The notes under the pieces: generated by a model
Told to the model about the DNA's origin: nothing
What the model saw: only the letters and a program-made list of their open reading frames with translations
The model's database searches: none
Program-made: the position numbers and the translations under genes
Shown here: positions 27,796-36,851 of the stretch, piece by piece
How the letters are laid out: each line of letters opens with the position of its first letter
Position numbering within the stretch: the stretch's first letter is position 1
Assembly (NCBI GenBank): GCA_011389815.1
Contig: JAABTP010000026.1
Coordinates: forward strand, 1-37,169
Length of the DNA stretch: 37,169 nucleotides
Source of the DNA: Desulfobulbaceae bacterium
GTDB taxonomy: Bacteria > Desulfobacterota > Desulfobulbia > Desulfobulbales > Desulfobulbaceae
Direction: 5' to 3'

Positions 27796-27851
27796 ACCCA
27801 TATCACATTGTGGTTAACTGTATCATGATAAATCATATTTTCCGGACCAAC

Positions 27852-30800
27852 ATGAATAACTCAGAGCAACACCTCCCCCCGGCCACCTCCCCGGTCAGCG
27901 CAATCATCCGCTTCTGCCTCCTCAACAAGATGGTCGTCGGTCTGCTCCTGCTGGCCGTAACCGGCTGGGGCCTGATGGTCGCCCCTTTTGACTTTCACCT
28001 GAGCTGGCTGCCCCGCGACCCGGTGCCGGTGGATGCCATCCCGGATATCGGCGAAAACCAGCAGATCGTGTTCACCAAATGGGCGGGCCGCTCGCCCCAG
28101 GACATGGAAGACCAGGTCACCTACCCGCTCACTGTGTCCCTGCTCGGTCTGCCCGGTGTCAAGACCGTGCGCAGTTATTCCATGTTCGGCTTTTCCTCCA
28201 TCTATGTCATCTTTGACGACTCAGTGGAGTTCTACTGGTCGCGCTCGCGGTTGCTGGAGAAGCTCTCCAGTCTGCCGCCCGACACCCTGCCTGAAGGCGT
28301 GCAGCCTACCCTTGGCCCGGATGCCACCGGTCTGGGGCAGATCTTCTGGTACACCCTGGAAGGCCGTAGCCCGGACGGCAAAGCCACTGGCGGCTGGGAT
28401 CTGGCCGAGCTGCGCTCGATCCAGGACTGGTATGTGCGCTATGCCCTGATGGGTGCCTCCGGCATCTCCGAGGTGGCCTCCATCGGCGGTTTTGTCAAGG
28501 AATACCAGATCGACGTGGATCCGGACGCCCTGCATGACCGGGGCGTGAGCCTGGAGGAGGTCTTTGCCGCAGCGCGTCAGTCCAATATCGATGTGGGCGC
28601 GCGCACCATCGAGATCAACCGGGTGGAGTACGTGATCCGGGGCATCGGTTTTGTCAAGAGCATCAAGGATCTGGAGCAGTCGGTAATCAAGGCTGTGGAT
28701 AATATCCCTATCCGGATATCGGATGTAGCAACGGTGAGTCTGGGTCCGGCCCTGCGGCGCGGTGTGCTGGACAAGGCCGGGAGCGAGGTGGTGGGCGGCG
28801 TGGCCGTGGTGCGCTACGGCGATAATCCGCTGGCCGCCATTGAGCGAGTCAAGGAGAAGATCCGGGAAATTTCGCCGGGCCTGCCCAGTAAAACCCTGGC
28901 CGACGGCACGGTGAGCAAGGTCACCGTCGTCCCCTTCTACGACCGCTCCGGCCTGATTCACGAAACCCTGGACACCCTGAAGACCGCCCTGAGCGAGGAG
29001 ATCCTGATCACTATCATCGTGATCCTGGTCACGGTCATGCACCTGCGCTCCTCCCTGCTCATCTCCGCCCTCCTGCCTCTGACCGTGCTCATGACCTTTA
29101 TCGGCATGAAGGTCTTTGGCGTGGATGCCAACGTGGTGGCCCTGTCAGGCATTGCCATTGCCATCGGCACCATTGTGGACATGGGCATTATCATCTGCGA
29201 GAATATTCTCACCCGGCTGGACAAGGCCGGGCCGGAGGAGTCCACCCTGCGCATTATCTATGATGCCTCCAACGAAGTCGGCGGTGCGGTCCTCACCGCT
29301 GTAGCCACCACCGTGGTCAGCTTTCTGCCGGTTTTCACCATGCAGGCTGCCGAGGGCAAGCTGTTCAAGCCGCTGGCCTACACCAAGACCTTTGCCTTGA
29401 TCGCCTCGGTGGTCATCGCCCTGACCGTGCTGCCGCCCCTGGCTCATATCCTGTTCCGGCGCAAGAAGGAAGGCAGGGCCTCCTGGCGGATCCGCTTTGC
29501 CCTGCCTGTGCTGCTGATTATCGCCGGGGCCATTCTGGCCTGGAAGGTCCATCTCCTGGCCCTTATCCTGCTCGGCCTGGGGCTTTACCGCCTGATCCTT
29601 CAGTTCCTGCCCACAAAGGTACTGCCCATCCTCAGCCGGATAGAAAACTGGATCATGATTCTGCTGGTCACGGTTTTGCTGGCCCGGAGCTGGCAGCCCC
29701 TGGGGATTGAAAAAGGGGAATGGGCCAATTTCCTCTTTGTCGGCCTGCTCATCGGTGGGCTGCTGGGAACTTTTCAGGTCTTTCAGTGGCTCTACCCGCA
29801 TCTGCTGCGGATCTTTCTCCGCTGGAAGCTGATATTTCTGATTTTTCCCCTGCTGATCGTGATCGGCGGGGCAATGGTCTGGCTGGGTATGCCCAAGCTC
29901 ACCGGCTGGATGCCAGACAGCATCCGCCGCACCAAGCCGATGATGAACCTGGCGCACAGCTTTCCCGGTCTGGGGCGGGAGTTCATGCCTGCTCTGGATG
30001 AAGGTTCCTTCCTCTACATGCCCACCACCATGCCCCATGCCGGGCTGACCGAGGTGCAGGAGGTGCTGGCGGCCCAGGACCGGGCGATCACCGCCATCCC
30101 GGAGGTGGAGTCCGCTGTGGGCAAGCTGGGCCGGGCCGAGACCCCGCTGGATCCGGCACCGCTCTCCATGATCGAGACCATCATCAATTATCATCTTGAA
30201 TATCTGGAGGATGAGAAGGGGAACCGCCTCCTTTTCCAATGGCGGGAGGATCGCAAGGATTTCTGCCGCAGCCCGGAAGGGGTGCTGCTCAAGGCCGGAG
30301 ACGGTATGCCTTATCTGGTGCAGGGACGCTTTGCGCGGAATGAACGAGGGCGGCTGATCCCTGATGAGAACGGTAAACCCTTCCGGCTCTGGCGGCCGCC
30401 GCTCGATCCGGCAATCAACCCGGACCGCGAGGCTTGGGAGGGCATTCAGACCCCGGACGACATCTGGAACGAGATCGTTCAGGCCGCCGAAATCCCCGGC
30501 GTGACCTCGGCTCCCAAGCTCCAGCCCATTGCTGCCCGCATCGTCATGCTCCAGAGCGGCATGCGCGCGCCTATGGGCATCAAGGTCAAGGGACCGGATC
30601 TGGCCACCATTGAGCAGGTGGGCCTGGATCTGGAACGGCTGCTCAAACAGGTGCCCTCGGTGTCGCCCCTGACCGTGCTGGCCGACCGGGTGGTGGGTAA
30701 ACCCTATCTGGAGATCGTCATCGACCGGGAGGCCATCTCCCGGCACGGCATCAAGCTGGGCCGGGTGCAGGAGGTGATCTCTGCGGCAGTGGGCGGCAAG

Positions 30801-31751
30801 ATGATCACCATGACCGTGGAAGGTCGGGAACGTTACCCGGTGCAGGTGCGTTATCAACGAGAACGACGGGATTCCCTGGAGGCCCTGGAGCGCATCCTGG
30901 TTACCACCTCCACGGGAGAGCATATCCCCCTGGCCCAGCTGGCCGATATCCGCTATGTGCGCGGCCCGCAGATGATCAAGAGCGAGGACACCTTCCTGAC
31001 CGGCTATGTCCTGTTCGACAAGAAAAAGGGCTTTGCCGAGGTGGACGTGGTCGAGCAGACCCGCAGCTTCCTGGAGGAGAAGATCGAAAGCGGAGAACTG
31101 AGCATCCCGCCGGGCGTGTCCTACACCTTTGCCGGTAATTACGAAAACCAGATCCGGGCCCAGAAGCGGCTTTCCGTGATCCTGCCCCTGGCCCTGCTGG
31201 TGATCATGCTGATCCTCTATCTCCAGTTCCGTTCTCTCGGCACCACCATGATGGTCTTCTCCGCCATCCTGGTGGCCTGGTCCGGCGGCTTTTTGATGAT
31301 CTGGCTCTACGGCCAGGACTGGTTCCTGAATTTTTCCCTGTTTGATACGGATATGCGCAGGCTCTTCCAGGTTCATAGCATCAATCTCTCTGTGGCCATC
31401 TGGGTGGGCTTCCTGGCCCTGTTCGGCATCGCCACCGATGACGGGGTGCTCATGGCTACCTATCTGGATGAATCCAAGGCCCGTCTCAAGGATAAGGAAG
31501 GCAGAACCCGGCAGGACATCCGCGACATGGTCCTGCACGGGGCGCAGCGGCGTATCCGCCCGGCCCTGATGACCTCGGCCACCACTATCCTGGCCCTGAT
31601 ACCGATTCTGACCTCCACCGGACGCGGCTCGGATATTATGGTGCCTATGGCTATTCCCTCCTTCGGCGGGATGATTATCGCGATGTTGACTGTTTTTGTT
31701 GTGCCGGTGCTATATTGTTGGGTTGAGGAGGGGAAGGTTAACACTCGGTGA
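27852..31751 (+). CDS. cusA: CusA/CzcA-type heavy-metal RND efflux pump, enlarged
   Basis: About 1299 residues, against about 1050 for E. coli CusA. Family signatures: VDAIPDIGENQQIVFTKWAG, GLPGVKTVRSYSMFGFSSIY, VIFDDSVEFYWSRSRLLEKL, GIAIAIGTIVDMGIIICENI with the proton-relay Asp, and FGIATDDGVLMATYLDESKA. The additional length lies in an extra hydrophobic block near residues 550-700 (ALPVLLIIAGAILAWKVHLL and following) and in a periplasmic insert with QWREDRKDFCRSPEGVLL. GC content is clearly above the neighbours except near the 3' end. No cusB- or cusC-like gene is adjacent, so its partners must be elsewhere. I prefer the ATG at 27852 over the upstream GTG at 27810. The metal (Cu/Ag or Co/Zn/Cd) is not certain. 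Confidence 0.9.
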   Translation: MNNSEQHLPPATSPVSAIIRFCLLNKMVVGLLLLAVTGWGLMVAPFDFHLSWLPRDPVPVDAIPDIGENQQIVFTKWAGRSPQDMEDQVTYPLTVSLLGLPGVKTVRSYSMFGFSSIYVIFDDSVEFYWSRSRLLEKLSSLPPDTLPEGVQPTLGPDATGLGQIFWYTLEGRSPDGKATGGWDLAELRSIQDWYVRYALMGASGISEVASIGGFVKEYQIDVDPDALHDRGVSLEEVFAAARQSNIDVGARTIEINRVEYVIRGIGFVKSIKDLEQSVIKAVDNIPIRISDVATVSLGPALRRGVLDKAGSEVVGGVAVVRYGDNPLAAIERVKEKIREISPGLPSKTLADGTVSKVTVVPFYDRSGLIHETLDTLKTALSEEILITIIVILVTVMHLRSSLLISALLPLTVLMTFIGMKVFGVDANVVALSGIAIAIGTIVDMGIIICENILTRLDKAGPEESTLRIIYDASNEVGGAVLTAVATTVVSFLPVFTMQAAEGKLFKPLAYTKTFALIASVVIALTVLPPLAHILFRRKKEGRASWRIRFALPVLLIIAGAILAWKVHLLALILLGLGLYRLILQFLPTKVLPILSRIENWIMILLVTVLLARSWQPLGIEKGEWANFLFVGLLIGGLLGTFQVFQWLYPHLLRIFLRWKLIFLIFPLLIVIGGAMVWLGMPKLTGWMPDSIRRTKPMMNLAHSFPGLGREFMPALDEGSFLYMPTTMPHAGLTEVQEVLAAQDRAITAIPEVESAVGKLGRAETPLDPAPLSMIETIINYHLEYLEDEKGNRLLFQWREDRKDFCRSPEGVLLKAGDGMPYLVQGRFARNERGRLIPDENGKPFRLWRPPLDPAINPDREAWEGIQTPDDIWNEIVQAAEIPGVTSAPKLQPIAARIVMLQSGMRAPMGIKVKGPDLATIEQVGLDLERLLKQVPSVSPLTVLADRVVGKPYLEIVIDREAISRHGIKLGRVQEVISAAVGGKMITMTVEGRERYPVQVRYQRERRDSLEALERILVTTSTGEHIPLAQLADIRYVRGPQMIKSEDTFLTGYVLFDKKKGFAEVDVVEQTRSFLEEKIESGELSIPPGVSYTFAGNYENQIRAQKRLSVILPLALLVIMLILYLQFRSLGTTMMVFSAILVAWSGGFLMIWLYGQDWFLNFSLFDTDMRRLFQVHSINLSVAIWVGFLALFGIATDDGVLMATYLDESKARLKDKEGRTRQDIRDMVLHGAQRRIRPALMTSATTILALIPILTSTGRGSDIMVPMAIPSFGGMIIAMLTVFVVPVLYCWVEEGKVNTR

Positions 31752-31876: not shown

Positions 31877-32377
31877 ATGAAACCCAGAGTTTATATAGAA
31901 ACAAGCATCCCAAGCTATTATCACGAGATACGGGATGATCCCGAATCGGTTGCAAAACGGCTCTGGACAAGAGAATGGTGGGAGGAGCACAGTTACCGCT
32001 TTGAGCTTCTGACTGCTCCGCCGGTTCTGGATGAACTGGAACAGGGAGATTACCCGACCAAAGAGAAAACGCTGCAATTCGTTGAAGCCCTGCCGCTGCT
32101 GCCTGTAAATGAAGAGGTGATTGATATTGTTCAGGAGTATATCCAGCACCATCTCATGCCGAACGACCCGGCAGGTGATGCGCTTCACCTTGCGCTCGCT
32201 TCGTACTACAGCTGCCAGTTTCTGCTCACCTGGAACTGCCGCCATCTTGCCAACGCAAATAAATTCGAACATATCCGGCACATCAACACGCTGCTGGGCC
32301 TGCCTGTTCCGATTTTAACTACACCCTTTCAGCTTATGCAGGAGGATATAGACGATGAAGACCGATCCGACAGTTGA
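31877..32377 (+). CDS. PIN-domain toxin, module 1
   Basis: A 166-residue PIN-domain protein. It opens KPRVYIETSIPSYYHE, an ET(S/N)-type variant of the usual DTN/DTS start, then PPVLDELEQGDYP with a conserved Glu, and NDPAGDALHLALASYYSCQF then LLTWNCRHLANANK carrying the D-x2-H and TWNxxHL acidic cluster of the PIN active site. PIN toxins of type II modules cleave RNA, often tRNA. GGCGAGG precedes the ATG at about six bases. The following 53-residue gene overlaps its end by 23 bases and is the presumed antitoxin. It is the first of two PIN modules after cusA. Confidence 0.85.
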   Translation: MKPRVYIETSIPSYYHEIRDDPESVAKRLWTREWWEEHSYRFELLTAPPVLDELEQGDYPTKEKTLQFVEALPLLPVNEEVIDIVQEYIQHHLMPNDPAGDALHLALASYYSCQFLLTWNCRHLANANKFEHIRHINTLLGLPVPILTTPFQLMQEDIDDEDRSDS

Positions 32378-32523: not shown

Positions 32524-32700
32524 GGTGCCCGATGCCGTATCCGCCTGGCCCTGATCCCGATCCTGACTTCCACCGGGCGGGGGTCGGATATTATGGTGCC
32601 TATGGCTATTCCTTCCTTCGGGGGGATGATTATTGCCATGCTGACGGTGTTTGTGGTGCCGGTGTTGTATTGTTGGGTTGAGGAGGGGAGGATCAGATGA
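32524..32700 (+). pseudogene. Second copy of a cusA-type gene 3' end
   Basis: A 59-codon frame ending at TGA (32698-32700). It encodes LALIPILTSTGRGSDIMVPM, then AIPSFGGMIIAMLTVFVVPV and LYCWVEEGRIR, matching the last residues of the intact pump at 27852-31751. Against that gene it lacks 33 bases, precisely between two GGCCCTGAT words, an apparent slippage or recombination deletion. Differences from the intact gene are mostly at third codon positions. There is no start codon and no upstream pump sequence: it begins seven bases after the antitoxin stop. It is a fragment, not a gene. Confidence 0.9.
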
Positions 32701-32716: not shown

Positions 32717-32745
32717 TTGCCTGCACAGAATGATTGCTGTATACT
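32717..32745 (+). promoter_or_regulatory. Promoter of PIN module 2
   Basis: TTGCCT (32717-32722) and TATACT (32740-32745) with a 17-base spacer. The toxin ATG at 32752 begins where transcription is expected to start, so the mRNA would be leaderless. It lies just after the displaced cusA 3' end. Confidence 0.65.
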
Positions 32746-32751
32746 GAGATC

Positions 32752-33195
32752 ATGATGAAAATATATCTTGATAACTGCTGCATTCAGCGACCGCTTGATG
32801 ACAGGACTCAGCTAAGGATTGCGGTGGAGGGTGAAATCATCCTGAACATCCTTTCGCTGATTGAAGCGGGACAGATTAGCTTGCTTTCATCCGAAATTTC
32901 GCTTTATGAGGCGAAGAAAATCAGCAATACTTTTCGCAGAGAATTCACGCTGAAGGTACTGAGCGAACGAAGCGGATTCACCCAGCTCAATGATGCGATT
33001 GAAGAACGCTCAAGGCTGTTCACCGATTTTGGCATCAAACCGATTGATGCCCTGCACCTTGCAGCAGCGGAAATGCTGAAAGCTGACTTCTTCTGCACCT
33101 GCGATGACAGGTTTCTGAAAAAGGCGAAGAGAGTAGACGACCTCAGAGTCAGGGCTGTTTCAATCCTTGAACTGTTACAGGAGATGGAAAAATGA
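32752..33195 (+). CDS. PIN-domain toxin, module 2
   Basis: About 147 residues from the ATG at 32752 (an ATG follows directly at 32755). It opens MMKIYLDNCCIQRPLDDRTQ, an LDN(C/S) variant of the PIN start, continues with LLSSEISLYEAKKISN, and carries GIKPIDALHLAAAEMLKADF, then FCTCDDRFLKKAK, the D-x2-H and C(D)D cluster that completes the acidic site. It differs clearly from module 1 in sequence, so the two modules are independent acquisitions. The next gene starts inside its stop codon (ATGA). The predicted promoter gives no 5' leader. Confidence 0.85.
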   Translation: MMKIYLDNCCIQRPLDDRTQLRIAVEGEIILNILSLIEAGQISLLSSEISLYEAKKISNTFRREFTLKVLSERSGFTQLNDAIEERSRLFTDFGIKPIDALHLAAAEMLKADFFCTCDDRFLKKAKRVDDLRVRAVSILELLQEMEK

Positions 33196-33536: not shown

Positions 33537-33905
33537 AATTTTGCTCTGACCCCTTTTATCAAAGGTTCACAGCTCTTGGTAAAAGGTTGTTTGCTATCAA
33601 CAGATGGTTCTTGATAACAAACAAAAGAGTTTTGTTAAACAACGAAGGAGCGTTGTTTATTAACCAAGGAGTGTTATCAAACAACGAAGGAACGTTGGCT
33701 ATCAACTAAGGAGTGTTGATTATCAAGAAAGGAGTTTTGTTAAACCGGGAAGGATTCTTGATAGACAGTAAAGGAGTTTTGCTTATCAAGGCTCCTTTGT
33801 TGTCTGCCGTTCAGGAAGTCTGATCGACCCGGATTTCCTTTACTCATGTTTTTTCTGTGATAAAAGGGGTCAGAGTCAAATGAAATCTAATTTTACTCTG
33901 ACCCC
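33537..33905. repeat. 21-bp imperfect tandem array bounded by GGGGTCAGAG-type inverted repeats
   Basis: From about 33604 to 33800 lie roughly nine units of 20-21 bases with a consensus near AAGGAGNGTTGNTTATCAA, e.g. at 33645, 33666, 33687, 33708, 33729, 33750 and 33771. The array is bounded on the left by AATTTTGCTCTGACCCC (33537-33553) then TTTTATC, and on the right by its near-perfect inverted copy (33859-33881). A second copy of the left end (33889-33905) follows, making an 11-base perfect hairpin GGGGTCAGAGT (33866-33876) with ACTCTGACCCC (33895-33905). Such GGGGTCAGAGTC palindromes are typical of REP-like elements mobilised by RAYT transposases. This fills most of the gap 33402-33918, which holds no gene I can support. 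Confidence 0.8.
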
Positions 33906-33918
33906 ATTAACCGCTTTT

Positions 33919-34053
33919 ATCTTGACCTCCACCGGGCGGGGATCGGATATTATGGTGCCTATGGCTATTCTCTCCTTTGGCGGGATGATTATCGCGATGT
34001 TGACTGTTTTTGTTGTGCCGGTGTTGTATTGCTGGGTGGTGAAGGGGCGGTGA
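33919..34053 (+). pseudogene. Third copy of a cusA-type gene 3' end
   Basis: A 45-codon frame (including TGA at 34051-34053) encoding ILTSTGRGSDIMVPMAILSF, then GGMIIAMLTVFVVPVLYCWV and VKGR. It matches the last residues of the intact pump; over 132 aligned bases I count 15 differences, mainly at third codon positions. The frame has no start and is preceded by the REP-like hairpin 14 bases upstream. It is a displaced 3' end, the third in 2.3 kb. Confidence 0.9.
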
Positions 34054-34101
34054 GAAGGGCATTTTTTCTAAGGGAAATAAGAAATGTACCCAATTTGTTC
34101 T

Positions 34102-34336
34102 GAATTTGCCGAGCTGTCCAACGAGACCGCAGGAGAGCATCCCCCCCCGTGAAGTCATCCGGCTGATGGTTGATTTGTTGTTTATGACGGACCGGGACAG
34201 CCTGACCACACCGGGCATGGTCACCATGCTCTATGACCCGGCCTTTCTCTTTCTCCAGCACATGCCTGTCAAAATGAAGCCGGAAGGCAGCCGTATCGGC
34301 ATAGTCTTTAACGGCTCGCCGCTCTTTACCGGCTAG
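34102..34336 (+). pseudogene. Relic of hsdM, type I restriction-modification methyltransferase
   Basis: Two frames and one internal deletion. From 34102 the frame reads EFAELSNETAGEH, then a run of Cs at about 34141-34148 shifts the frame and the next one continues PREVIRLMVDLLFMTDRDSL then TTPGMVTMLYDPA, exactly the HsdM segment before the SAM-binding DPACGTGG. Instead of CGTGG the frame jumps to FLFLQHMPVKMKPEGSRIGI and VFNGSPLFTG, the HsdM segment after the catalytic NPPF motif, and then stops. The methyltransferase core is therefore deleted. No hsdS or hsdR sequence is present near it. This is the scar of a lost type I system. Confidence 0.85.
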
Positions 34337-34419
34337 GTCGTGAGCAGTGAAAATCAACTTTGCGAATGAAGCAAATCAAGTTGAAAATAATGATGCGTGG
34401 TGGTAATAATTGATGAGAC

Positions 34420-34441
34420 AGCCTATAATTTAAAATAGGCT
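34420..34441. other. Inverted repeat before the TIGR04255 operon
   Basis: AGCCTAT (34420-34426) and ATAGGCT (34435-34441) around AATTTAAA, in the 204-base gap before the operon. It could be an end-of-transcript hairpin for the upstream side or a regulator site; no promoter boxes are convincing nearby. Confidence 0.35.
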
Positions 34442-34540
34442 TATTAGAACACTTCAGGACAGGGCAGAATTTATGCTCTGAGAAATCAAATTTTCTTCAG
34501 ACAAGCTGATTGTTTGAGTACAAGTTAAGGCGTGACCAAC

Positions 34541-35278
34541 ATGACAAGGCCAGCCAAAATAACACCGGACCCCATAATAAACGCTGTCGTTGAACTAAGG
34601 TTTAACAGCTCAGTGCCTGAAGATGCCGTTTTAGGAATGCTATTCGCTCAGATAAAATCTAAGTATAATAAATTTCAAAAACTTCCTGTAGCTGACTTTC
34701 CAAAAGAAGTTCGTATGAACGATCAGGCACTACAGTTTAACCCATACTATCAATGTGAAGCAGGGGCATATAGGCTCAATGTCGGGCCTAAAGTTATCTC
34801 CCTTGCAATCAGCAAAGATTATCCTGGATGGAAAGAACATTATTTCCCTGAGGTGAAATCCGTTTTATCTCATCTTGATCAGGCAGGAATCGTAGATAAT
34901 TTTATTCGTATTGGAGTTCGATATATAGATTTTTTTGAAAATAACATCTTTGATAATATCAATTTGTCGATCAGCCTGAAAGAACATCCGCTTGATGCGC
35001 TTCAGCAAACTTTTAATGCAATATTCAAAAATAAAAACGAAGGCTTTTTAACTAGAGTCCAAGTGGTGAATAATATCACCGCAATGAGTGACGGTCTTAA
35101 AAAAAATGGCTCTATTATAGATACAGATACGTATATTGAAAATAAGCAAGGGTTTGAATTCTCTGGGATAGAGAATATAATTAATAGCTGCCATGAACTG
35201 TCTGTTGATTTCTTTTTTGACCTTCTAAAAAAAGAATTTATAGACACCTTAAATCCAGAGTACGAAAATGATCAATAA
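34541..35278 (+). CDS. TIGR04255-family protein, first gene of a three-gene operon
   Basis: About 245 residues from the ATG at 34541. AAGG at 34527-34530 is 10 bases before this ATG but only one base before the alternative GTG at 34532, so the ATG is preferred. The opening DPIINAVVELRFNS, the middle GWKEHYFPEVKSVLSHLDQA, GVRYIDFFENNIFD and the late DTDTYIENKQGF match the family as I remember it: a sporadically distributed bacterial protein of unknown function, often next to other small unknown genes. No enzymatic motif is visible. Base composition is distinctly AT-rich against the neighbours. The next gene overlaps its end by 11 bases. The family name is from memory of the motif set. Confidence 0.75.
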   Translation: MTRPAKITPDPIINAVVELRFNSSVPEDAVLGMLFAQIKSKYNKFQKLPVADFPKEVRMNDQALQFNPYYQCEAGAYRLNVGPKVISLAISKDYPGWKEHYFPEVKSVLSHLDQAGIVDNFIRIGVRYIDFFENNIFDNINLSISLKEHPLDALQQTFNAIFKNKNEGFLTRVQVVNNITAMSDGLKKNGSIIDTDTYIENKQGFEFSGIENIINSCHELSVDFFFDLLKKEFIDTLNPEYENDQ

Positions 35279-35666
35279 TACCGAATCATATATTGACAAG
35301 CCCTATTTGTCGAAATATCCGTCAATAGTAACATCTCTCGTTTGCTGTGCGGTGCTGTCGTATGGAAACGTTAACAGCTATCATTCCGAAAAATTCAACG
35401 ATATCGATATGCGATACGGATACGATCAAGATTTTTCATATGATACACAACCACCTACATGGGCTCCTCTTGATAACATCATCTGTGCAGATTTTGAAAA
35501 TGATGCCGAGGTAATTTTCGATGCTTTGACGTCCCTTGATATAATCAATAAGTTAGCGTTCATAGCAGTGGATGAAGAAGCTGACAGGAGAATAGAAGAG
35601 TATTTTGCGTCAAACCCTATAAAAACAAGAACAATATTTGAAAACCATCGAATGAAAAAAGGATGA
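35268..35666 (+). CDS. Hypothetical protein, second gene of the TIGR04255 operon
   Basis: A 132-residue acidic protein that I do not recognise. Residues about 18-33 (YPSIVTSLVCCAVLSYG) are the only hydrophobic stretch and could be a buried helix or weak membrane segment. The middle is rich in Asp and aromatic residues (DIDMRYGYDQDFSYDTQPPT), and the C-terminal part is helical with IINKLAFIAVDEEADRRIEE. It overlaps the TIGR04255-like gene by 11 bases and the next gene by four, so the three are almost certainly translated together. Confidence 0.7.
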   Translation: MINNTESYIDKPYLSKYPSIVTSLVCCAVLSYGNVNSYHSEKFNDIDMRYGYDQDFSYDTQPPTWAPLDNIICADFENDAEVIFDALTSLDIINKLAFIAVDEEADRRIEEYFASNPIKTRTIFENHRMKKG

Positions 35667-36226
35667 ATATTGCCGATCCGGAATGTCGATGGCCTCCCAT
35701 CTACGATTTTGAATCACTTGGTGAAGAAATAAATAAACTCGTTTCCAACAACGAGATATTCGATATATTTTTCCACATAAGAAATCTGGATGCAGGTCTA
35801 TATCAAGGCGACATTCTTAAGTATCCAGGTATGTTTCCATTTATTGACAGCAATGGGAATATTCAAGTAATAGAAGAGGATTACGATTACTGGATGATCT
35901 TGGGAAATACGTGTGATTTAGACAGGGAACTTTCTTCACCTCATCTATCTCACATTACTCCCTTGATACCGCTAGATGACGATATTCCTGTAGATGTAAT
36001 CGGAAACCTCCGTACTTACAATAGTTACAAAAAGTTCTTTGTGCCGACGTGGAGCGATTCCTCAGACAAAGGATTTATTATTGATTTTACATATAGTTGC
36101 TCTGTAGATAAAAATTGCCTTTTAGAACACACTGAAGTTACGGCTAGATTGACTTTCAAATCCTGGCTTTTGCTTCATTCTTGTTTAGTACGCTATTTAG
36201 CACGAGACGACGGGCGCCATGATTAA
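35663..36226 (+). CDS. Hypothetical protein, third gene of the TIGR04255 operon
   Basis: A 187-residue protein starting within the ATGA overlap of the previous gene. The segment DYWMILGNTCDLDRELS near residues 75-93, followed by HITPLIPLDDD, resembles a motif (hhhxxTCDhxR...hxPLhxh) found in small uncharacterised bacterial proteins; the Cys-Asp pair may be functional. No helicase, nuclease or TM signature is seen. AT-rich like its neighbours. It closes the operon; the next 209 bases contain no gene I can support. Confidence 0.7.
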   Translation: MNIADPECRWPPIYDFESLGEEINKLVSNNEIFDIFFHIRNLDAGLYQGDILKYPGMFPFIDSNGNIQVIEEDYDYWMILGNTCDLDRELSSPHLSHITPLIPLDDDIPVDVIGNLRTYNSYKKFFVPTWSDSSDKGFIIDFTYSCSVDKNCLLEHTEVTARLTFKSWLLLHSCLVRYLARDDGRHD

Positions 36227-36435
36227 ACAATAACCACCCTATTCACCCCTCCATAAAAGAAATTTCAAATCAAATAGATAAACTCACCTCTCCGCATCCT
36301 ATCGGCTGACAAACCTCCATAATGCGACGAACAAAAGCGTAAATAAGGGATGAAGAACATAGATCTTTGCTCTCTTGATAGATTTCTTCAACGCTGCTCT
36401 CAAGCTGGCAGCGAATTATTTCCTCCTTGTATAAT

Positions 36436-36579
36436 TCACAATACGACCCCCTCTCTCTCCACCGCCTCTTTGAACGGCAGCGCATCATATTCAGGCGAAG
36501 ACCACACCTGCCTGCTCCGTATAATACTGCTCACCACCTCATTATTTTCCAGTTCAATATCAAGGTTGCAAGGAGAATG
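36436..36579 (-). pseudogene. Relic of a minimal nucleotidyltransferase (MNT-type antitoxin)
   Basis: The minus-strand frame after an in-frame TGA (36580-36582) reads HSPCNLDIELENNEVVSSII, then RSRQVWSSPEYDALPFKEAV and EREGVVL, ending at 36436-36438. The VDhEhE...SPxYxxhxxEGVVLY pattern is the C-terminus of MNT-domain nucleotidyltransferases, usually paired with HEPN toxins. The GSxxxGxxxxxSDhD catalytic part is missing upstream, and the final Tyr is lost to a frameshift. A continuation in another frame (36270-36434) is open but is not a HEPN domain I recognise. Confidence 0.5.
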
Positions 36580-36581
36580 TC

Positions 36582-36851
36582 ATGCAATTGAATATAAATG
36601 ATATGCTGTTGAAAAGAGCGCAACAAGTCAGTGGTCTGCAATCGGCTCAGGCTGTCATTGAAGCTGCGCTGCGCGTTTTGATTGCTCAACGGCATCAAGG
36701 TGCATCCGAAGCCGGAAGAGCGGAAAATCCTCTGAAACTGTTGCTGGAATCGGATTTTATCGGCTGTGCCGACAGTGACGAAACCCGCCTTTCACAAACC
36801 TATAAAAACGAGCTGACCGGAATTTTAGAGAAAAAATATGGTTATCGCTGA
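36582..36851 (+). CDS. vapB: VapB-family antitoxin with truncated toxin
   Basis: An 89-residue antitoxin. It opens MQLNINDMLLKRAQQVSGLQ then SAQAVIEAALRVLIAQR, the VapB ribbon-helix-helix pattern (MxLNIdd.LLkxAxxhsGh....hhEhALrxLi). The C-terminal half, LESDFIGCADSDETRLSQTY then KNELTGILEKKYGYR, is the toxin-binding tail of this subfamily. AAGGAG precedes the ATG by about 10 bases. It is followed by a toxin that stops after six codons (36838-36858), so the antitoxin is now unpaired locally. Confidence 0.85.
   Translation: MQLNINDMLLKRAQQVSGLQSAQAVIEAALRVLIAQRHQGASEAGRAENPLKLLLESDFIGCADSDETRLSQTYKNELTGILEKKYGYR

Follow-up and report, generated by a model that had tools for sequence, protein, structure and literature searches.

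The operon found in the window (the whole stretch of 37,169 nucleotides of a Desulfobulbaceae contig that was analysed) consists of three genes, A, B, and C, which follow one another on the same strand (Table 1). The coordinates of the open reading frames and their overlaps (11 bases for A/B and 4 bases for B/C) were reproduced as they had been described from the letters alone. The ATG start of gene A is at position 34541, with an in-frame GTG further upstream at 34532. The operon had also been described as more AT-rich than its surroundings, and so it is: the GC content is 0.357, 0.365, and 0.393 in the three 1-kb segments lying mostly on the operon and 0.415–0.636 in all the others. For the region 34040-36600, a promoter scan gave 8 sites (7.3 expected) and a terminator scan 4 sites (1.7 expected).

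Protein A is a clear member of the TIGR04255 family (sporadTIGR04255, NCBIfam), as the sequence-only reading had suspected; it scores 117.4 bits against a cut-off of 30, over residues 10–241. The model names no function, and no Pfam family was found for A. For B and C, searches of Pfam, NCBIfam, and PADLOC gave nothing at E values up to 1, and no model of PADLOC 2023 matches any of the three proteins within that limit. Protein A matches phrog_5464 (E 2.1e-27) and C matches phrog_4575 (E 9.9e-8), both without assigned function. The earlier statement that the operon carries no known effector domain therefore stands for the sequence libraries, which return only families without assigned function, but not for the predicted structure, as the predicted fold of C is a known toxin fold.

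Table 1. Features of the operon and its neighbourhood (positions in the window)
Feature	Position	Strand	Description
PIN-domain protein	31877-32377		above Pfam cut-off
PIN-domain protein	32734-33195		above Pfam cut-off
HsdM-like type I methyltransferase remnant	34106..34333	+	internally deleted; neighbour, outside the cassette
Gene A	34541..35278	+	TIGR04255 protein; constant gene of the cassette
Gene B	35268..35666	+	132-aa middle protein, varies with third-gene type; proposed adaptor
B residues 19-35, SIVTSLVCCAVLSYGNV	35322..35372	+	most hydrophobic 17-residue stretch of B
Gene C	35663..36226	+	187-aa protein; proposed effector; predicted MazF/CcdB fold at ~residues 43-186, N-terminal extension
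C residues Q48-G49-D50 (QGD)	35804..35812	+	invariant in 29/29 sequences
C residues N82-x-C84-D85 (NxCD)	35906..35917	+	invariant in 29/29 sequences; includes the Cys-Asp pair pointed out earlier
VapB antitoxin	36582-36851		above Pfam cut-off

The toxin-antitoxin neighbours noted from the sequence are present: a VapB antitoxin and two proteins with a PIN domain. The remains of a type I restriction gene were likewise recovered: the short frame upstream of gene A matches two separate parts (81% each) of an intact 634-aa frame of the same genome. The intact frame, located on G000:C175, carries the motifs DPACGTGGML and NPPFG and is taken here as HsdM, while the remnant itself gives no match in a Pfam search at 1e-3.

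Genes A, B, and C form a genuine co-inherited module. In other phyla, and in phages as well, TIGR04255 genes are adjoined by homologues of B and C, this being the association on which the original proposal of a system had been staked, and the order A-B-C recurs in Thermodesulfobacteriota, Bacteroidota, Alpha- and Gammaproteobacteria, and Pseudomonas phages. Six aligned A proteins, used as the profile query, detected 22 loci in genome contigs and 7 in viral contigs, with C recognised beside A in 16 and 4 of them, respectively. These loci come, among others, from Desulfobulbaceae and relatives, Henriciella, a gammaproteobacterium, Magnetococcales, and Pelovirga, as well as from Bacteroidota (Prolixibacteraceae, Lutibacter, Draconibacterium, and others). 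With C as the query, 257 genomes of the order yielded 10 matches (the window included), nine of them with A alongside. A single match was found in 198 Bacteroidota genomes and 8 in 369 Pseudomonadota genomes; A is recognised by HMM beside seven of these nine, the locus L170 ends at the contig end, and L167 is the exception. The phrog_4575 model matches 4 of 297 genomes, three times adjoining A (again counting the window), and the fourth match (L004) is fragmentary and lies close to a contig end, the sequence covered there containing no A. The sets of loci from the A, C, and phrog_4575 searches overlap one another.

Some copies of the cassette are altered. The tenth C match within the order (L033) has decayed, the first part of A continuing directly into the central part of C. 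Locus L167 (reverse strand, 121-2103) has a C homologue and a B-like middle gene, and its upstream gene, unrecognised by the A model, is either a strongly diverged A or a different gene that has taken its place. At L047 (5439-5861) the frame of C is broken by one stop codon, which could be decay or a sequencing error, and A and B are open.

A survey of 789 genomes for TIGR04255 gave 59 matches, which reduce to 57 loci. The genes are present in 15 of 144 genomes of the class of the window, in 12 of 247 genomes of the phylum of Draconibacterium, and in 30 of 398 genomes of the phylum of the gammaproteobacterial locus; these rates are slightly raised, as the 57 loci include the window and three loci found previously. 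In 54 of the 57 loci the start of a second gene of the same orientation lies no more than 30 bases from A (it overlaps A in 39), and in 51 loci a third gene follows the second at the same close distance. The same mechanical rule applied to 70 genes of 200–340 aa from control regions gave a second gene within 30 bases in 21 cases (overlapping in 9) and a third gene in 23. No third gene is present at L021, L091, L100, and L107, the middle gene of the last running off the locus. The gene order is beyond chance, as it recurs in several phyla and as close spacing is far more frequent behind TIGR04255 genes than behind the control genes.

The third gene is not the same in all the cassettes. Downstream proteins clustered by phmmer (E <1e-3, single linkage) show at least seven sequence groups in the third position of TIGR04255 loci, including PemK/MazF, HEPN-like, and retropepsin-like proteins. 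Among the 57 loci, the commonest group is c3/c8/c16 (15 loci), followed by the CD MazF-fold type to which the window belongs (12) and the HTH type (8, one of them without a third gene in view); the remainder are HEPN-like (4), retropepsin-like (3), PemK (3), papain-like (2), and other or none (10). The labels HEPN, retropepsin, and papain are provisional.

The middle-gene clusters track the third-gene clusters, so that the two form matched pairs. The CD MazF-fold third gene (c0) is paired with the middle clusters c1, c6, and c17 and with a single protein of L110. The third-gene cluster c5 is paired with the middle cluster c4, whose one scanned member (L007) gives weak HTH matches below the Pfam cut-off. 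The retropepsin-like third gene (c11, motif DTGA or DTAA) follows c10, and one of its two scanned members has sub-threshold Pfam matches to aspartyl proteases. The HEPN-like c7 is accompanied by c12 and two single middle proteins; its member L081 has a sub-threshold Pfam match to HEPN, and five sequences of this kind share invariant R29, Y36, Y37, H57, R82, D86, and Y87 (L019 numbering). The pair c13/c14 carries PemK (L084, 49.9 bits); the two PemK third genes scanned, L042 and L084, are both above the PF02452 cut-off. The papain-like c9, labelled by eye from a GLTCATF motif, is paired with c18 and two single middle proteins, and L094, the one member scanned, has no Pfam match. A further pair, c19/c20, was found outside the 57 loci, with a DUF7689 protein (133 bits) in the third position. 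The middle cluster c2 precedes c3, c8, c16, or single proteins, and c15 precedes c8; profile comparison gave a probability of 90 for c3-c8 and 93 for c3-c16, and by this measure c3 looks related to both. In the c2 middle proteins (L101, L102, L106, L092, and others) a pattern resembling WDGYGA...DGxVxLEW can be seen by eye.

Since the third gene falls into at least seven groups and the second changes alongside, A is the constant part of a polymorphic cassette. What is new here is the three-gene TIGR04255 cassette with its variable third gene. In a tree built from 85 A proteins (a quick IQ-TREE run, with many weak branches) the cassette type changes 25 times, the minimum being 10 and the mean of shuffled labels 52.3; without the mixed "other" group the number is 16. 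The observed value lies between the minimum and the shuffled mean, therefore A mostly goes with its partners, yet has switched them repeatedly. The PemK-type locus L042 nests inside the CD types with an SH-aLRT of 99, and, given the starred branches of the tree, the CD label must have changed three times or more. A PADLOC search of 10 proteins from the other types left seven without a match at 0.01, and the remaining matches are weak and short: the HEPN-like L020 (candidate PDC-M05B, E 1.6e-5; HEPN_IX, E 2.5e-3), the HTH-type middle protein L007 (mad1, E 1.5e-4; RmrA, E 3.2e-3), and the middle protein of L102 (PDC-M32A, E 8.2e-3).

The cassettes are carried by temperate phages and by a plasmid. 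In the P2-like Pseudomonas phage Dobby the full cassette occupies 1090-2786, between the integrase at the end of the record and the portal gene. Rousset et al. 2022 (PMC9122126) report an anti-phage hotspot in P2-like phages of E. coli, located near cos between gpA and gpQ; the Dobby cassette lies in the integrase-portal interval, not strictly in gpA-gpQ. In phage VW-6S the cassette sits after the CI repressor. Sulfurimonas phage SNW-1 has A, a middle gene, and a third gene that aligns with the HEPN-like group and has no Pfam match at 1e-3. On a Phocaeicola plasmid the trio adjoins a 445-aa frame that, by eye, reads like a tyrosine recombinase. The window's own C, used as the query, gave no match beyond the window, and the plasmid and phage matches were obtained with other family members or with A; a search of viral contigs with the C alignment gave no confirmed locus. 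Among 50,697 phage records, the A protein of Dobby found 4 carriers, that of L062 one more, that of L105 two weak matches, and that of L104 none. A cassette serving the phage itself, for example in host takeover or lysogeny stability, with the bacterial copies being mainly prophage relics, would fit the complete cassettes near lysogeny genes of temperate phages and those in viral contigs. The carriers are, however, few among the phage records in comparison with the bacterial rates of the survey, in which prophage and other copies are counted alike, and we consider this explanation quite improbable.

That the cassette is a defence system we regard as evenly balanced, and its neighbours were compared with genes elsewhere in the same genomes (139 ORFs near 20 cassettes, with 6 of a possible 7 from L121, versus 140 control genes 75–100 kb away; the ORFs were picked mechanically and some are spurious). 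Phage_integrase (Pfam) is found in 6 of the 139 neighbour ORFs and in at most 2 of the 140 control ORFs, a bound that follows from its absence among the best 25 of the 190 control Pfam families, each with at least two members. AAA_21 is found in 3 neighbour and 2 control ORFs. The number of PADLOC models matched is 168 near the cassettes versus 54 in the control, but 23 of the 25 matches listed are redundant models on two type I specificity proteins, and mad3 models match two proteins in either set; an enrichment of known defence genes was thus not demonstrated by PADLOC in this sample.

Protein C was modeled with AlphaFold2 from 17 sequences, with middling confidence (pLDDT 72.9, pTM 0.72). 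The first 50 rows of a Foldseek search against the PDB are all relatives of MazF and CcdB (best E 4.1e-3, prob 1.0), no match having an E value below 0.001. In VIA-align the S. aureus MazF aligns over 107 residues with a Z score of 10.0 and an rmsd of 3.1, and the best 50 entries are, by title, all MazF, CcdB, Kid, CptIN, or similar toxins. The sequences tell a different story. No Pfam family matches C at E values up to 1, hence neither does PF02452, and an identification of C as MazF by sequence was rejected; a profile search of the PDB with C gave no MazF match, and profile comparisons of C with MazF/PemK are weak. An hhalign probability of 41.5% for the C family against three PemK sequences was discarded, as the QGD of C was aligned there to a later-lying QGD of PemK, and it falls to 7.9% once L042 is added. 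Nor is a relationship claimed between C and the third genes of c5 (HDCDI motif), L073, or L040, for which the same method gave 1.1, 0.3, and 4.1%.

MazF/PemK proteins have conserved catalytic Arg and Thr residues. In the alignment of 29 C sequences, the columns with a conservation of 86% or more are P12, L19, Q48, G49, D50, L80, N82, C84, D85, P100, and P128, with no Arg or Thr. Seven of these (Q48, G49, D50, N82, C84, D85, and P100) are invariant. The Cys-Asp pair to which attention had been drawn from the sequence is thus kept in all 29 sequences, as part of QGD...NxCD. The absence of a sequence match and the differing conserved residues, together with the N-terminal extension, set C apart from MazF proper; C is MazF-like in its predicted fold and not MazF by sequence or conserved residues. 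The likeness to CcdB is limited to the predicted fold.

The invariant Cys-Asp and Gln-Gly-Asp suggest an enzyme, and no known toxin active site is recognised in C. Both would suit a metabolic operon, or one for RNA or protein modification, with the third gene acting on a cellular substrate. Sporadic distribution, swapping of the third gene, and integrases among the neighbours argue against such a role, which we find improbable.

The model of protein A is of high quality (pLDDT 92.9, pTM 0.89) and has no convincing solved structural relative in Foldseek (PDB) or VIA. In the best 50 Foldseek rows the TM scores do not exceed 0.33 (query length) or 0.39 (target length), and the best VIA Z score is 8.4 over 106 residues. 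Weak similarities to TBP, AdoMetDC, RepDE, guanido kinases, and Med18/20 were not accepted as kinship, nor was the match to one unnamed viral model (TM 0.53/0.63). Since A stays the same and its partners vary, a role as sensor or hub suits it best.

Protein B changes together with C, and for this reason most likely binds it; it may also bridge C to A. The hydrophobic stretch of B (Table 1) has a mean hydropathy of 1.61, a value that 9% of its shuffled versions also attain, and the corresponding stretch starts at residues 6–29 in 28 of the 29 B proteins of the CD type. Hydropathy does not establish B as a membrane protein: the best window reaches 1.6 in 13 of the 29 CD-type B proteins and also in 4 of the 29 C proteins, and the observed value is reached by fewer than 5% of shuffles in only three of the B proteins. 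The middle proteins of most other cassette types have no such stretch.

We propose, with roughly even confidence, that the trio is one type of a polymorphic mobile cassette, in which a sensor, an adaptor, and a toxic effector would together halt growth on infection. Protein A would be the constant part, acting as the sensor or hub, and B the type-specific adaptor that ties the effector to A in a complex and holds it inactive. The effector would be C, which has the predicted MazF/CcdB fold and a conserved centre of its own (QGD...NxCD), and A would release it from B upon a cue from the infecting phage. Free C would then act on a cellular target and halt growth before the phage matures. A point against the defence reading is the commonest third-gene group (c3/c8/c16), which is not of a known toxin type by Pfam (no match in the two members tried).

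The main rival of the defence reading is a tripartite toxin-antitoxin cassette, with C as the toxin and B and/or A as the antitoxin, kept by the penalty of its loss and by the stability it confers on mobile elements, with no sensing of phage. The classic toxin fold predicted for C, the PemK and HEPN-like genes in the third position, the toxin-antitoxin genes next to the operon, and the carriage by phages and a plasmid would all be expected of an addiction module. Retropepsin-like and papain-like third genes, as they occur here, would be unusual in such modules. There are, moreover, three genes, the constant first gene being larger than usual antitoxins, and Pfam finds no DNA-binding domain in A or B of the window (a weak HTH match below the cut-off is present in the c4 protein L007). 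On balance we hold an addiction module to be rather unlikely. HipBST (PMC10627512) is a tripartite toxin-antitoxin module, and the likeness of the cassette to such modules consists in three genes with a toxin-like member; it differs in its constant first gene, in the change of type of the third, and in that no DNA-binding antitoxin was detected by Pfam in the copy of the window.

For the defence reading, the closest parallel is of another kind. CBASS is an immune system of polymorphic effectors, with a constant core and interchangeable effectors. The cassette shares with it such a core and partly toxin-like effectors, and differs in that no cyclase or other known sensor was found in the copy of the window, A having no Pfam family. 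The true PemK genes of some cassettes show that MazF/PemK toxins can themselves fill the third position. No description of the cassette was found in the literature searched (preprints and most subscription journals being outside its scope), PMC papers in that search mention neither TIGR04255 nor DUF7689, and passages of PMC9122126 and PMC12948488 do not describe it.

In its broadest form, the defence reading would make TIGR04255 the mark of widespread, undescribed polymorphic immune cassettes, each with a constant sensor of a new fold, a matched adaptor, and a swappable effector (MazF or HEPN RNases, retropepsin- or papain-like proteases, and in the present case a MazF fold with an acquired Cys-Asp active site); we put this forward tentatively, at somewhat less than even confidence. 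If true, bacteria, a plasmid, and temperate phages would carry a modular cassette for immunity or addiction, and TIGR04255, a family with no function given, would act as its constant sensor. The cassette would offer a ready list of effector types, and the C family would be a toxin fold rebuilt around a Cys-Asp centre.

The DNA upstream of the operon shows a repeated arrangement of its own. The 3' end of an AcrB-type efflux gene (27810-31751) is present as three copies, at 31589-31734, 32544-32689, and 33903-34048, the second and third being 89% and 81% similar to the first. They are followed by a PIN gene, by a PIN gene and a small ORF, and by the HsdM remnant with the A-B-C cassette, respectively, as if cargo had been added step by step at the end of one gene. 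Contigs C146 and C120 also carry pieces similar to these copies. The interval from the PIN genes to the cassette contains degenerate 21-base tandem repeats (33620-33781, consensus AACGAAGGAGTGTTGTTTATC, 5.8 copies), with a second array overlapping the first.
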